Assembly (NCBI GenBank): GCA_903928045.1
Contig: CAIYPH010000807.1
Location: forward strand, 1-6,187
Length of the DNA stretch: 6,187 nucleotides
Direction: 5' to 3'
From: an uncultured Rhodospirillales bacterium
Lineage (GTDB): Bacteria > Pseudomonadota > Alphaproteobacteria > Acetobacterales > Acetobacteraceae
A model generated the notes under the pieces. The model was given only the letters and a program-made list of their open reading frames with translations. It did no database searches and had not been told where the DNA came from. Positions 1 through 6,187 of this stretch are shown piece by piece. Numbering within the stretch: position 1 is the stretch's first letter; the number at the start of each line of letters is the position of its first letter. Both the position numbers and the translations under genes were made by a program.

Positions 1-632
1 AGCGCACCCACCACGATGCCGGGCATGGTCAGCGGCAAGGTGACGCGCCAGAACCGCCGCAGCGGCGCCGCGCCGAGACTGTGCGCCGCCTCCTCCAGCG
101 CCGGATCGAGCCGCGCGAAACCGGCCAGCAATGCCAGCGTGGTGGTCGGCATCATGATTTCGGTGAGCCCGATCAGCACCCCCCAAACCGAGTTCATCGC
201 CCGGATCGGCCCGGTGCCGAACTGCGCGAGAATGCCGTTCACCCAGCCCCGGTCGCCGAGAATGATCATCCAGCCGAAAGTGCGCACCACCGAGCTGACC
301 AGCAGCGGCGCGATCACCAGCACCGTCAATACGCTGCGCCAGCGCGAGCGGCTGCGGAACAGGAACAGGGCGATCGGATAGGAGGCCAGCACCGACAGCA
401 CCGCCACCGATCCCGCCAGCCACACCGAGCGCCACAGCACGCCGAGATAGAAGCGGTCGGTGAAGAAGCGCATGTAGTTGCCGGCGTCCGCGCCATCGAC
501 CAGCACGCCGCCGACGCTGTGCGACAGCGACAGCCTTGCCAGCCAGGCCATCGGCAGCAGGAAGGCGACAAAGGTAATCAGCGCGGCCGGCAATAGCAAA
601 AGAGCAGGGAAGGCAAGGGCTTCTTTTTTCAA
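1..632 (-). CDS. ABC transporter permease, PotB-like (partial, runs off left edge)
   Basis: Inner-membrane permease subunit of a polyamine-type ABC importer. The visible 210 residues, read on the minus strand, begin with a hydrophobic first helix (about residues 9-30, ending FLLPMAWL). A periplasmic loop follows (about 33-65), then helices near 68-92 and 100-112. The segment VVRTFGWMIILGDRGWVN (115-132) is typical of PotB-type permeases. The cytoplasmic EAA loop is clear: E181-A-A, G187 and L199-P200 precede the next helix, and this loop contacts the ATPase. The C-terminal part is beyond the edge. The best start is a TTG at 632-630, with AAGGAAG at 648-642 as ribosome binding site nine bases upstream; no ATG lies near the N-terminus. 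An in-frame GTG at 677-675 would overlap the preceding gene and add a non-hydrophobic leader, so it is less likely. It lies 14 bases after the solute-binding protein stop, in the same operon. The start region coincides with a dispersed repeat arm. Confidence 0.92.
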   Translation of the reverse strand, partial: MKKEALAFPALLLLPAALITFVAFLLPMAWLARLSLSHSVGGVLVDGADAGNYMRFFTDRFYLGVLWRSVWLAGSVAVLSVLASYPIALFLFRSRSRWRSVLTVLVIAPLLVSSVVRTFGWMIILGDRGWVNGILAQFGTGPIRAMNSVWGVLIGLTEIMMPTTTLALLAGFARLDPALEEAAHSLGAAPLRRFWRVTLPLTMPGIVVGA

Positions 633-646
633 AAATAAGCGCTTCC
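619..646 (-). repeat. Solitary half-arm of the palindromic repeat
   Basis: On the minus strand this 28-bp stretch starts GGAAGCGCTT and ends AAAAAAGAAGC. It matches the outer end of the complete repeat at 4531-4686, with a C-to-A change in the left stem and a shortened T-run, so the hairpin is imperfect. After AAGAAGC the match stops: the expected A-run and CTTTTATCC are absent and permease coding sequence continues. The GGAAGC tip follows the solute-binding protein TAA directly. The copy therefore fills the intergenic gap and extends into the permease N-terminus. Confidence 0.8.
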
Positions 647-1705
647 TTACTGCGCCGGGATCACATCCCGGCGCCACCGCCCCGCCCACTGGTCAAGCGC
701 CCCGGCGACGAAGCCCCAATCGACCGGCACCATTTTCGTCAGCGTCGCCGGGGCCGAGGATGTCCTGGCCAGCAGCTCCGGCGCCAGCACGGCCTTCTTG
801 TTGGAGGGGCCGTAGTACATCGCCTTGGCCATCGCCACTTGCGGTTCCGGGCTCAGCGCGAAGTCGATGAACGCCTTGGCCGCCGCCGCATTGCGCGCCC
901 CGGCGACGAGGTTGATGGTATCGAGGTCGAGCACCCCGCCCTCGCGCATCACCACCGACTTCAGCTTGCCCCCCGAGCGGTCGGCGTAATACTGCGCCCG
1001 CGCGTTCCAGCCAATGCCGATGCTGGCCGCGCCGTTGATGATCATGGTGTAATTGTCGGGAGTCGCCTGCCAGGTCTGCACGTTGCCGGCGATCTTCTTC
1101 AGCGCGTCGATCACCGGGTCAACCGGCCCCTTGTAGTCCTGCCCGAGGTATTTCGCGGTCAGGATCTGCACCGAGGTGCCGATCACGTTCGGCGCCGGCG
1201 AGAAGACGATCTTGCCCTTGTTGGCGGGGTTGAGCAGATCGGCGATACCCGTCGGCGCCGGTTGCAGGTCGGCCGCGTAGATCATCACGAGATGGTCGAA
1301 ATCCATCGCCGGGCCCCACTCGCCGCCGCCGGGCGCGGCGCCCATGCGCGCCTCGTCGAAGATGTCGGCGAGGTTCGGCACCTCCTTGCGGTCGAGCGGC
1401 GCGTAGATGCCCTCGGCGTTGCCAATCCGCGAGATCGAGAAATCGATGATCGACACATCCACCTGCGGGCTCGCCTTCTGCGCCCGCAACTGGCCGAGCA
1501 TCTGCGCCGAATTGCCGCCGGCGGAGTAGATCACCTTCACCGCCGGAAACTTCGCCATGAACGGCTCGACGAAGGCCTTCATGTAATTGTCCTGGAAAGC
1601 CCCGCCATAGCCCATCAGCAAGATTTCCCCGGCCGGATCGGCGGCCCGGGCGGAGAGCGGCAGCAGCGCCGCAACGGCAAGCAACAGCCTGGTGACGGTG
1701 TTCAT
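647..1705 (-). CDS. Periplasmic ABC solute-binding protein, PotD-like family
   Basis: Ligand-capturing subunit of the importer, 352 residues. It begins with a Sec signal peptide (residues 1-21, a TRLLLAVAALLPLS core ending A-R-A) with likely cleavage before ADPAG; there is no lipobox cysteine, so the mature protein should be free in the periplasm. The first strand of the mature domain leads into YGGAF (33-37), a family hallmark. IDFSISRIGNAEG, WGPAMDFDHLVMIYAADL and, near the C-terminus, YYGPSNKKAVL match the layout of spermidine/putrescine-type binding proteins, and the length is usual. The start ATG has AGGGGG five bases upstream, and the gene begins 13 bases after the dehydrogenase stop, so the two are very probably co-transcribed. 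Family assignment is secure. The ligand is not: relatives bind polyamines, opines, aminoethylphosphonate or other small organic molecules, and nothing visible decides between them. Confidence 0.94.
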   Translation of the reverse strand: MNTVTRLLLAVAALLPLSARAADPAGEILLMGYGGAFQDNYMKAFVEPFMAKFPAVKVIYSAGGNSAQMLGQLRAQKASPQVDVSIIDFSISRIGNAEGIYAPLDRKEVPNLADIFDEARMGAAPGGGEWGPAMDFDHLVMIYAADLQPAPTGIADLLNPANKGKIVFSPAPNVIGTSVQILTAKYLGQDYKGPVDPVIDALKKIAGNVQTWQATPDNYTMIINGAASIGIGWNARAQYYADRSGGKLKSVVMREGGVLDLDTINLVAGARNAAAAKAFIDFALSPEPQVAMAKAMYYGPSNKKAVLAPELLARTSSAPATLTKMVPVDWGFVAGALDQWAGRWRRDVIPAQ

Positions 1706-2904: not shown

Positions 2905-4509
2905 ATGAGTGTGTCGACCGGCCGGCATCCGGCATTCTTCAGCTTGTCCAGCCTGATCCTCATCGCACCCTTGTGCGTGCTTGGCGCCATCATCGGTACC
3001 GAGCTGATCACCACCCTCGGCATCACCACCAACTCCTCGCTGATCGGCGCCCTCGCCGGCATGGCGCTAGCCCGCCTGCCGATGGCGATCTTCTCCCACT
3101 ACAAATCCACCCACATGCAGAACCTGGCGCAGTCCGCCATTTCGGCCGCCACCTTTGGCGCCGGCAACGCGCTGCTGCTGCCCATCGGCATCCCCTTCGT
3201 ACTCGGCCGGATGGACCTAGTGATGCCGATGATGGTCGGCGTTTTCCTCGCCACGCTGCTCGACGGCTACATGCTCTACCGCATGTTCGACAGCGAGGTA
3301 TTCCCCGCCGAGGGCGCCTGGCCGCCCGGCGTCGCTGCCGCGGAGGCGATCAAGGCCGGTGATGAAGGCGGCCGCAAGGGCGTCGTCCTCCTCGGCGGCC
3401 TCGCCGTCGGCATCATCGGCTCCATCGGCCTCGGACCCATCCCCGCGATCCCCATGTCCGCTTTCGGTGTCGCCTTCATCGGCAACATCTGGGCCCTCAC
3501 CATGTTCGGCGTCGGCCTTCTCGCCCGCGGCTATTCCACCACCCTGTTCCCCTGGCTTACCCCCGATGGCGACCTCATGAAGGCCTACATCCCCCACGGC
3601 GTCATGGTCGGCGCCGGCCTCGTCGCGCTGATCCAGGTCGTCATGCTGATGTTGAAGCAGGACGGCGCCACCACCGGCACCCGCACCCCCGCCACCGAAG
3701 TCCGCCGCACCATCGTCGGCGGCACCCTCACCTACGCGCTGATCGCCGTCATCATCGCCCTGCTCGGCGGGCTCTACGCCGAAATGTCGGTCGGTATGCT
3801 GATCGCCTTCGTCATCTACGCCGCCTTCGCCGCCCTCATCCATGAGCTGATCGTCGGCCTCGCCGCCATGCATGCCGGCTGGTTCCCCGCCTTCGCGGTG
3901 GCCCTGATCACGCTCGTCATCGGCATGCTGATCGGCTTCCCCGCCCCCGCCCTTTGCCTCATGGTCGGCTTCTCCGCCGCCACCGGCCCCGCCTTCGCCG
4001 ACATGGGCTACGACCTCAAGGCCGGCTACATGCTCCGCGGCTACGGAACCGACCCCGAATTCGAGCGCGACGGCCGCCGCCAGCAGCTCTACGCCGCCCT
4101 GTTCGCCTTCGTGGTTGCCGGCATCGTCGTGCTGATCTCCTACAAAGGCTATTTCGCCGCCGGCAAAGTCGCGCCGGTCGATAAGGTCTACGTCGCCACC
4201 ATCAAGGCCGGTGCCTCTTGGGAGGTCGCCAAGCAATTGCTGATCTGGGCTATCCCCGGCGCAGTCATCCAGTTCCTCGGCGGCCCGCAGCGCCAGCTCG
4301 GCGTGCTGCTCGCCACCGGCCTGCTCCTGCTCAACCCCATCGCCGGCTGGGCCGTCCTCGTCGGCGTCGCGCTGCGCATCGTCTGGACGCGCGCAACCGC
4401 GGGCAAGCAGCAATCCGAAATGGAGGTCTTCGCCGCCGGCGTCATCGCCGGAGACGCCCTCTATGGGTTCTACGACACCACCTCGAAGACCTTCCTGCCC
4501 AAGAAGTAG
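2905..4509 (+). CDS. OPT/YSL-family (oligopeptide transporter family) membrane protein
   Basis: Polytopic inner-membrane transporter of 534 residues with about a dozen hydrophobic segments. OPT proteins are proton-coupled importers of small peptides or metal-chelate complexes in eukaryotes; substrates of most bacterial members are unknown. Three stretches support the family. FPAEGAWPPGVAAAEAIKAG (133-152) parallels the FPEG...A..LKAGE block. YIPHGVMVGAGLVALIQ (228-244) matches the conserved glycine-rich helix. PALCLMVGFSAATGPAFADM (348-367), followed by GYDLKAGYMLRG, matches the late conserved loop. The C-terminus, EVFAAGVIAGDALYGF, is also family-like. The protein is shorter than many bacterial OPT members (often above 600 residues as I recall) and I see no eukaryotic NPG motif. 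The ATG has AGGGGG eight bases upstream; an upstream in-frame start at 2668 would overlap the divergent dehydrogenase and add polar sequence, so I reject it. Family call is good; substrate unknown. Confidence 0.86.
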   Translation: MSVSTGRHPAFFSLSSLILIAPLCVLGAIIGTELITTLGITTNSSLIGALAGMALARLPMAIFSHYKSTHMQNLAQSAISAATFGAGNALLLPIGIPFVLGRMDLVMPMMVGVFLATLLDGYMLYRMFDSEVFPAEGAWPPGVAAAEAIKAGDEGGRKGVVLLGGLAVGIIGSIGLGPIPAIPMSAFGVAFIGNIWALTMFGVGLLARGYSTTLFPWLTPDGDLMKAYIPHGVMVGAGLVALIQVVMLMLKQDGATTGTRTPATEVRRTIVGGTLTYALIAVIIALLGGLYAEMSVGMLIAFVIYAAFAALIHELIVGLAAMHAGWFPAFAVALITLVIGMLIGFPAPALCLMVGFSAATGPAFADMGYDLKAGYMLRGYGTDPEFERDGRRQQLYAALFAFVVAGIVVLISYKGYFAAGKVAPVDKVYVATIKAGASWEVAKQLLIWAIPGAVIQFLGGPQRQLGVLLATGLLLLNPIAGWAVLVGVALRIVWTRATAGKQQSEMEVFAAGVIAGDALYGFYDTTSKTFLPKK

Positions 4510-4530
4510 TCCCGCGCGAGGAAGACAGGA

Positions 4531-4686
4531 GAAGGAAGCGCTTCTTTTTTGGAAAAAAAGAAGCAAAAAACTTTTATCCACTTGCTGTGCGCCGCTCCCA
4601 CCTATCCGCGGGGTGTACGCCAACGGCATCGATGGAACAGAAAGTTTTTTTGGTTCTTTTTGTTCACAAAAAGAACAGCTTCCTTC
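4531..4686. repeat. Complete 156-bp MITE-like palindromic repeat (module I)
   Basis: Two imperfect inverted ends of about 46 bp face each other around a core. Both tips read GAAGGAAGC inward. The left end has an 11-bp stem (4540-4550 with 4554-4564, loop GGA) followed by an A-run and CTTTTATCC to 4579. The right end (from 4641) has a 10-bp stem (4653-4662 with 4667-4676, loop TTCA) flanked by AAAG and a T-run. The core (4580-4640) contains the complement of TGCCGTTGGC. No transposase lies inside and I see no target-site duplication. It starts 21 bases after the OPT stop codon. The T-runs lie within the stems, so these are not textbook terminators, though an effect on RNA 3' ends is possible. 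The plus strand contains no stop triplet in any frame. I recall similar elements in Acetobacteraceae; this was not checked. Confidence 0.88.
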
Positions 4687-4754
4687 CCTGACTGACGAAC
4701 CACAGCCTTGCGCCCACCGCAGTTGCGCCACACGCCATCACCCCGCTACGACAC

Positions 4755-4768
4755 CTCCCGAACGGGAG
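4755..4768 (+). promoter_or_regulatory. 14-bp palindrome covering the presumed MFS ribosome binding site
   Basis: CTCCCGAACGGGAG is a perfect inverted repeat ending 12 bases before the MFS start codon. Its right arm, GGGAG (4764-4768), is the best Shine-Dalgarno match for that gene, so an RNA hairpin (CTCCC paired with GGGAG, loop GAAC) could hide it. The same sequence could instead be a DNA operator. The rest of the leader (4687-4754) shows no convincing promoter; TTGCGC at 4723-4728 with TACGAC at 4747-4752 is weak. Confidence 0.4.
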
Positions 4769-4780
4769 CGAAGAACAACA

Positions 4781-5968
4781 ATGAACGGCAAAATGCGGCG
4801 CAACCTTCTGCTCCTGGCCTCCTGCCAGGCGCTGGGACAGGCGGCCGGAACCATGATGTTCGCCGCCACCGCCTTATCGGTCGCCACCTTCATCGGCACC
4901 GGCAACCTCGCCACCCTGCCCATCACCATGCAGCATCTCGGCGTGATGCTGTCGGTCTTCCCCGCCGCCCTCCTCATGCAGCGCTATGGCCGCCGCTTCG
5001 GTTTCCGCCTCGGCTCCCTTGTCGGCATGCTCGGCGCCGCCCTCTGCGGCATCGGCCTGACCAACGGCAGCCTGGTGACGATGTGCGCCGGCGGCGTCGT
5101 GCTCGGCTTCTCCGTCGCCAATCTCCAGATGTACCGCTTCGCCGCGGCCGAACTTGTCCCCGGCGCGCTGCGCGCAAAGGCGATCTCCTGGGTCACCTCC
5201 GGCGGCATCGTCGCCGGCTTCATCGGCCCGAGTCTGGTGCGCCTGACCTACGACAGCTTGGTGCCGATCTACCTCGCCACCTACATCGCGATGTTCGCCA
5301 TCCACCTCATCGTGTTCGTCGTGATGTCCTTCATCGACTTCCCGCCGCCGATCGCGCCCGAGGTGGTGCAGGGCCCCCAGCGCTCGCTGCTCGAAATTGC
5401 CCGCCAGCCCACCTACATCGTCGCCGTCGCCGCCGCCATGGTCGCCTTCGGCACCATGTCCTTCCTCATGAGCGCCTCCCCGCTCGCCATCGTCGGCTGC
5501 GGCCTGCCGCAAACCGAGGCGCATTTCGTCATTTTCCTCCACGTCATGGGCATGTTCGTGCCCTCCCTCTTCACCGGCAACCTCATCAACCGCTACGGCG
5601 TGCTCCGCATCATGTCGATCGGCGGCATCATCCTCGCGCTCGCCGTCGTCCCCGCCCTGTCCGGCCAGGATGCCTGGAACTTCCGCATCGCGCTCGCCAT
5701 GGTCGGCATCGGATGGAACCTGATGTTCATCGGCGCCACCACCCTGCTCACCACCACCTACCGCCCCAGCGAACGCGGCAAGGCCCAGGCGATGAACGAC
5801 TTCCTGATGTTCAGCACCACTGCCACCTCCACCTTCCTCGCCGCCTATCTGCTCGACATCTACGGCTGGCACGTCCTCAACGCCATCGCCGTGGTTCTCG
5901 TCCTGCTCGCGCTTGGCGCTATCGCTTGGTTGCATTTTGCCCGCCGGGCAACGCCGTCGACGCTTTGA
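4781..5968 (+). CDS. MFS transporter, 12-helix
   Basis: Major facilitator superfamily secondary transporter in the inner membrane, 395 residues with a hydrophobic pattern fitting 12 helices. The loop between helices 2 and 3 reads MQRYGRRFGFRLG (66-78), a version of MFS motif A with the GRR core but no preceding aspartate. MYRFAAAE (117-124) and ISWVTSGGIVAGFIGPSLVR (135-154) form a block I recognise from a proteobacterial MFS subfamily related to sugar and drug efflux carriers. A polar cytoplasmic loop (186-208) separates the halves, and NRYGVLR (270-276) is the second-half counterpart of motif A. ATG at 4781 is chosen; ATG at 4793 (MRRNLLLL) is an alternative four residues in. Reading further upstream runs through the repeat and is rejected. 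The gene lies 271 bases after the OPT gene on the same strand, across the repeat, so co-transcription is uncertain. Substrate and direction of transport are unknown. Confidence 0.92.
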   Translation: MNGKMRRNLLLLASCQALGQAAGTMMFAATALSVATFIGTGNLATLPITMQHLGVMLSVFPAALLMQRYGRRFGFRLGSLVGMLGAALCGIGLTNGSLVTMCAGGVVLGFSVANLQMYRFAAAELVPGALRAKAISWVTSGGIVAGFIGPSLVRLTYDSLVPIYLATYIAMFAIHLIVFVVMSFIDFPPPIAPEVVQGPQRSLLEIARQPTYIVAVAAAMVAFGTMSFLMSASPLAIVGCGLPQTEAHFVIFLHVMGMFVPSLFTGNLINRYGVLRIMSIGGIILALAVVPALSGQDAWNFRIALAMVGIGWNLMFIGATTLLTTTYRPSERGKAQAMNDFLMFSTTATSTFLAAYLLDIYGWHVLNAIAVVLVLLALGAIAWLHFARRATPSTL

Positions 5969-6097
5969 AGGAAGCAGTTCTTTTTGTGAACAAAAAGAAC
6001 CAAAAAAACTTTTTCTGACTTCGTTGCCGTTGGCTTACACTCAGGGGATGGTTGGTAGTGGTACCAATCAGGCGGATAAAAGTTTTTCGCTCTTATT
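5967..6097. repeat. Second palindromic repeat (module II), inverted and truncated
   Basis: This copy is in the opposite orientation to module I. Its left end, GAAGGAAGCAGTTC onward, matches the complement of module I's right end at 45 of 46 positions, including the stem 5977-5986 with 5991-6000 (loop TGAA) and the trailing A-run with CTTT. The core keeps TGCCGTTGGC (6025-6034) and is diverged after it. The match resumes at GGATAAAAGTTTTT (6074-6087) and fades by about 6097, so the right hairpin and outer tip are missing. Gapless hand alignment gives about 105 of 131 identical positions. The first two consensus bases are the GA of the MFS stop codon TGA. Confidence 0.85.
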
Positions 6098-6154
6098 GCG
6101 TCATCTGTTGAGATCTGCGATTCTACTCCCCGGCGTCAGGGGAACATCTCAGGT

Positions 6155-6187
6155 ATGGACAAAGTGGCGTTTGGGCGGTGGCTTGCC
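6155..6187 (+). CDS. Possible start of a gene running off the right edge
   Basis: An ATG opens 11 codons to the end of the window (MDKVAFGRWLA). AGGGG at 6138-6142 lies 12 bases upstream, which is long for a ribosome binding site, and AGG at 6151-6153 lies almost next to the ATG. The leader holds two nested inverted repeats: TGAGAT/ATCTCA (6109-6114 and 6146-6151) and CCCC/GGGG (6128-6131 and 6139-6142). The fragment is too short to assign a family; a transposase is one possibility because the neighbouring repeat is cut off just before it. Weak call. Confidence 0.25.
   Translation, partial: MDKVAFGRWLA

Follow-up and report, generated by a model that had tools for sequence, protein, structure and literature searches.

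MITEs of DDE insertion sequences are short and non-coding, have inverted ends, insert as a unit, and occur in many copies. BIMEs, RIMEs, and similar mosaic palindromes are composite palindromes that lie between genes. Near stop codons, bidirectional intrinsic terminators present an A-run, a stem, and a U-run whichever strand is read. According to the published account, the REPINs of Pseudomonas and E. coli are intergenic doublets of inverted hairpin repeats with a pairing spacer, which also occur as singlets and have two folds, including a clover (PMC3116915). GTAG and CGTC are the tags of two large REP superfamilies, and CGTC repeats have been stated to be missing in Acetobacteraceae (PMC3733652).

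The element described here, present as copy A in a 6,187-nucleotide stretch of DNA (the window), shares with REPINs the intergenic inverted doublets, the pairing spacer, the singlets, and the two folds. It is also short, non-coding, inverted-ended, many-copy, and apparently inserted as a unit, as MITEs are, and by description it is a composite intergenic palindrome like BIMEs and RIMEs. It resembles bidirectional terminators in its A-run, stem, and U-run, which can be read from either strand and are found close to stop codons; it differs from these in being apparently mobile and in having an extra hairpin outside each run. In contrast to MITEs, it has no parent among the scanned genes, its ends are imprecise, and its flank duplications are not constant. 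In contrast to REPINs, its stems are AT-rich, it has no clear tie to a RAYT (REP-associated tyrosine transposase), its units are about 130 to 160 bp, and its other end is a second hairpin type in five of seven genomes. The consensus before the hairpin is GGAAGGAAGC, which is neither the GTAG nor the CGTC tag. Because the tag is lacking and the RAYT tie is not clear, we did not file the element as a REPIN. An Rfam search of the window gave no family at or above the gathering score, and we found no description of the element family in the open-licence PMC literature. This agrees with a preliminary description of the locus, which knew of no described family to name.

That description had read positions 4531 to 4686 as a nested palindrome built as tip, hairpin, A-run, core, T-run, hairpin, and tip. 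We located each of these parts in the sequence at its given position. The parts of copy A, and two further copies in the window, are as follows.

4531..4539, + strand: left tip of copy A, GAAGGAAGC (from the sequence; the tip consensus of relatives is GGAAGGAAGC)
4540..4564, + strand: first hairpin, C-G closing type (from folding and compensatory changes in relatives)
4565..4575, + strand: A-run plus CTTTT, AAAAAACTTTT, the outer part of the central stem (from the sequence and aligned relatives)
4576..4640, + strand: core, of a subfamily with 72 to 75 nt from A-run to T-run in G001 and G002 (from core comparison)
4641..4652, + strand: T-run, AAAGTTTTTTTG, which pairs with the A-run (from the sequence and aligned relatives)
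4653..4676, + strand: second hairpin, G-C closing type, with a TGTTCACA-type loop (from folding and aligned relatives)
4677..4686, + strand: right tip, AGCTTCCTTC (from the sequence)
5967..6087 (to about 6088), − strand: copy B, of the subfamily of copy A and in the opposite orientation (from the repeat search and core comparison)
610..649, − strand: copy C, a lone half that lies at a solute-binding-protein gene's stop codon (from the repeat search and open frames)

A repeat search of the window gave outer arms of 40 nt each for copy A, with a 78% match. The minimum-energy RNA fold of copy A is a four-way junction (clover) at −64 kcal/mol on one strand and −64.4 kcal/mol on the other, compared with shuffle means of −38.2 (SD, 3.7) and −36.2 (SD, 3.6) (z = −6.97 and −7.80), and none of 200 shuffles reached its energy. 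This supports the earlier proposal that a single strand can fold into two local hairpins. The centroid structure of the + strand is longer and rod-like, and thus the clover is not the sole fold. The element had also been called A/T-rich in its arms and without a protein of its own. Consistently with this, we found that GC drops to 0.584 in the 500-base segment at 4501 to 5000, compared with 0.61 to 0.69 elsewhere, and we read the open frames that cross copy A as run-throughs rather than as a gene of the element. Copy A lies between an OPT-family transporter gene, whose stop codon it follows by 21 nt, and an MFS gene. The piece inserted in congeners seems to reach about 10 to 20 nt past the tips of copy A, so that 4531 to 4686 may be slightly short.

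The repeat search also gave an inverted second copy (4562 to 4686 against 5967 to 6091; 82%). This copy B, which has the core of copy A, begins directly on the MFS gene's stop codon. It lacks the far hairpin because another sequence, also repeated in G003, starts near position 6088. The same sequence, CGCTCTTATTGCG..., interrupts copy B (6088 to 6187) and halves of the element in G003 (L084, L137, and L337). It passes into an open frame, which in the window reads MDKVAFGRWLA, and several of its G003 copies lie at contig ends. A 66-aa fragment of it had no Pfam match. What breaks copy B is probably an insertion sequence with the repeat as its target. There is precedent for insertion sequences with REPs as targets (PMC1525189), and the interrupted copy B is consistent with it. 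A second repeated sequence, TTCCGTTCGCTGGAAAACCCGCA... followed further on by GTCATTGCGAGG, cuts other G003 halves (L119 and L125).

We searched for the repeat in 150 genomes of one bacterial family, which we judged to be Acetobacteraceae from named records and a match on an Acidiphilium plasmid. The tip-plus-hairpin pattern was found in 25 of the 150 genomes, with a maximum of 287 copies (G086) and none in the reversed control. Only 2 of 385 genomes of the class had it (G003 and G062), both within the 150. The hairpin plus A-run, counted with up to 3 mismatches, occurred in 3 to 1,259 copies per genome in 19 element genomes, again with none in the reversed control. The genome search and copy count that had been proposed as a check thus revealed a dispersed family, and with many copies in relatives and no Rfam match, the repeat is not confined to the window, nor did it match a named family in these searches. 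The nearest relatives in a protein scan were lake MAGs (loci L001 to L003 of genomes G001 to G003), which share one genus with G006 and G026. A plasmid search with copy A gave one partial match of 44 bases, in Acidiphilium multivorum; copy B gave no plasmid match, and viral contigs gave no match to the strict pattern. On A. multivorum pACMV3, the annotation places hypothetical protein WP_154653566.1 over a copy (L336, 2411 to 2557) that lies between ABC transporter genes. For Lichenicola cladoniae, a count of 1,369 predicted REPs has been reported, which may include the element family (PMC12306157).

The main locus set, 1.03 Mb in length, was selected for the presence of the repeat, and L208 and L210, subsets of other loci, were excluded from counts. 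In this set, the strict detector (up to 2 substitutions) found 308 halves, compared with 1 in a block-shuffle control, and these made up 96 full units and 116 lone halves. A looser detector (3 substitutions) found 342 halves, compared with 73 in reversed sequence, which near-palindromes partly survive; on block shuffles it found 0 to 7 per set, compared with 9 to 159. Looser forms were used for halves at RAYT loci, stop-codon distances, junctions and orientations at unbiased loci, and the unbiased partner search. Genes were called by a simple self-trained script, so gene starts are uncertain. The script placed six full units and 14 lone halves within genes, apparently through N-terminal frame extensions, and these were excluded from context counts.

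As in REPINs, inverted pairs are the commonest arrangement. Among neighboring halves up to 220 bp apart in the chosen loci, 96 of 103 pairs faced inward, 7 faced outward, and none faced the same way. At loci not picked by pattern, the counts were 48 inward, 1 outward, and 2 the same way. We found that 58 of the 96 cores fall into six clusters, most of them lineage specific with near-constant length, and that 38 match no other core. G001 has the core of copy A at 13 places and G002 has it at 2, and these include two orthologous pairs. Since cores recur at unrelated sites, hairpin, core, and hairpin travel together. In two aligned subfamilies, hairpin pairs switch from C-G to G-C or from U-A to C-G with pairing kept, and the closing pair is complementary in 472 of 494 halves from seven genomes, nearly always as C-G, G-C, or T-A. 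The two ends of a unit were unlike more often than shuffled ends in G001 (22/24), G003 (22/33), G068 (9/9), and G133 (17/24), and G002 leaned the same way (8/9; P = 0.054); unlike ends were not in excess in G086 (14/39) or G026 (0/4). With unlike ends, two local hairpins would be favored rather than a single long rod. Conservation of the tips is poor past about 10 nt. Inside-out pairs, with hairpins back to back and the A- and T-runs outside, were seen at L330, L327, and L331 in G002 and G003 and also at L238, L241, and L252.

A comparison of occupied and empty sites had also been suggested, and we compared ten G001 sites with four congeners. At eight of the ten, the corresponding junction is element-free in at least one congener, as expected of MITE-like unit insertion. 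Some version of the element is present in all four congeners at L222 (an inside-out pair in G002 and G003 and a single hairpin in G026 and G006), and L228 was counted as neither occupied nor empty. L216 carries a full unit in G001 and a lone half in G002, with nothing in the three others. G002 also has a lone half at L218, and at L219 its orthologous junction holds a unit with a different core of 56 nt. The OPT-MFS junction of the window is without the element in L001 and L002. The element thus appears, by these alignments, to have inserted as a unit into gene junctions, and we infer gain rather than loss as the direction at each site. At the place of copy A, the intergenes of L001 (4180 to 4260) and L002 (11590 to 11660) are short and contain GC-rich inverted stretches whose sequence is unrelated.

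Flanks overlapped by 3 to 12 bp at four of the eight sites in at least one comparison, and none were usable at the remaining sites; overlaps of 20 and 31 bp at L224 and L226 were judged to be alignment artefacts and excluded. Over 94 copies, the longest flank repeat was 5.20, slightly above the 4.97 of mismatched pairs (SD, 0.09). The short overlaps, with so weak a statistic over all copies, at most suggest target duplication. We found no excess of outer-flank complementarity (6.60 compared with 6.58).

We conclude that copy A is probably a member of a non-autonomous mobile element family, REPIN-like or hairpin-ended-MITE-like, whose enzyme would be encoded elsewhere. Core-sharing dispersed copies, occupied and empty versions of junctions, inward pairing, and compensatory changes in the hairpins all point this way. 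The preliminary description had proposed a non-autonomous mobile element or a clover-like RNA unit, and the many copies in relatives and the element-free orthologous junctions strengthen that proposal. Counted against a mobile element are the lack of a transposase or autonomous partner among the proteins scanned, the inconsistent flank duplications, the poorly kept tips, and the unmatched cores (38/96). Junctions with a version of the element in every congener also fit local rearrangement or a conserved role. According to the mobile-element model, a trans-acting enzyme, presumably a transposase, would copy the core into gene junctions together with its two flanking hairpin units, which face inward and are often of unlike type. 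Recognition would likely depend on the folding of a single strand into a four-armed clover with a hairpin close to either end; the hairpins would then matter as DNA. Lone halves and inside-out pairs are likely products of deletion or rearrangement.

If the element were instead a REPIN in the strict sense, it would be moved by a RAYT. RAYT matches (NF047646) were present in 13 of 25 element genomes compared with 16 of 125 others, kinship ignored, and at 3 of 13 RAYT loci of element genomes an element hairpin lies 49 to 89 nt past the RAYT stop codon. Inverted doublets with singlets as their remnants and an alternative clover fold, described for REPINs (PMC3116915), also fit. However, six element genomes (G026, G058, G061, G095, G124, and G133) have no RAYT match, allowing that MAGs may be incomplete, and genomes without a match reach 483 hairpin copies. 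Halves were found at 4 of 14 RAYT loci in element genomes, where about 2 are expected from copy numbers; a poor half match at a fifth locus, L304, was taken as chance and excluded. Other GC-rich palindromes flank 11 of 13 RAYT loci, compared with 130 of 400 random windows, and a like GC-rich palindrome stands on both sides of the RAYT at 4 of 13. The half itself is untagged. A RAYT vehicle was not supported, though it is conceivable, and we consider a strict REPIN quite improbable. At L281, L287, L288, and L301, the like palindromes on both sides of the RAYT gene differ between genomes and are probably the RAYT's own REPs.

The IS200/IS605-type Y1 transposase (PF01797) was rejected as a candidate; it occurs in 18 of 150 genomes and is absent in element genomes G003, G026, G058, G086, G124, and G133. 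Nine genes closely flanked by inward halves encoded no transposase domain (three had no Pfam family), nor did the 24 proteins scanned of the 27 between halves 221 to 3,000 bp apart. A transposase gene flanked by the same ends had been suggested, but no such autonomous relative appeared among the genes that we scanned, which lay between inward halves in about 1 Mb and in the unbiased loci, a minor part of each genome.

The element could also be chiefly an RNA signal used by the host at gene ends, such as a bidirectional terminator or mRNA 3′ end, that has multiplied. Its A-run, stem, and U-run can be read on both strands. In the chosen loci, 110 of 331 hairpins lie within 15 nt of a stop codon, compared with 31 of 329 random intergenic points, and 2 of 85 full units lie between divergent genes, compared with 97 of 551 gene pairs. 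By a simple test, only 1 of 81 element-free convergent junctions in three genomes has a classical terminator-like structure. In contrast, the bias at unbiased junctions was weak both in G086 (element in 11/23 convergent, 40/101 tandem, and 9/29 divergent junctions) and in G133 (13/44, 51/218, and 11/40, respectively). Avoidance of divergent junctions is thus strong in chosen loci and weak in unbiased ones, and we put no weight on it. Several units lie between overlapping same-direction genes, apparently in ABC transporter operons by flank sequence. Inner cores are mostly no more structured than shuffles (median z, −0.39; z below −2 in 26/94), and a simple terminator scan of copy A found the left hairpin on the − strand only. 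We therefore rate a primarily host-used signal as unlikely; a putative RNA role for the mobile element is possible.

More tentatively, and less likely than not, the repeats may be a family-restricted, RAYT-independent class of hairpin-ended mini-elements with distinct left and right ends and an undescribed enzyme, which would fill about 40% of the sampled junctions of one genome and supply much of the U-tract RNA structure there. The element is present at 60 of 153 gene junctions in the unbiased loci of G086, a density at which effects on mRNA ends, operon layout, and annotation must follow. If a RAYT is not the mover, what else moves REP-like doublets becomes testable.
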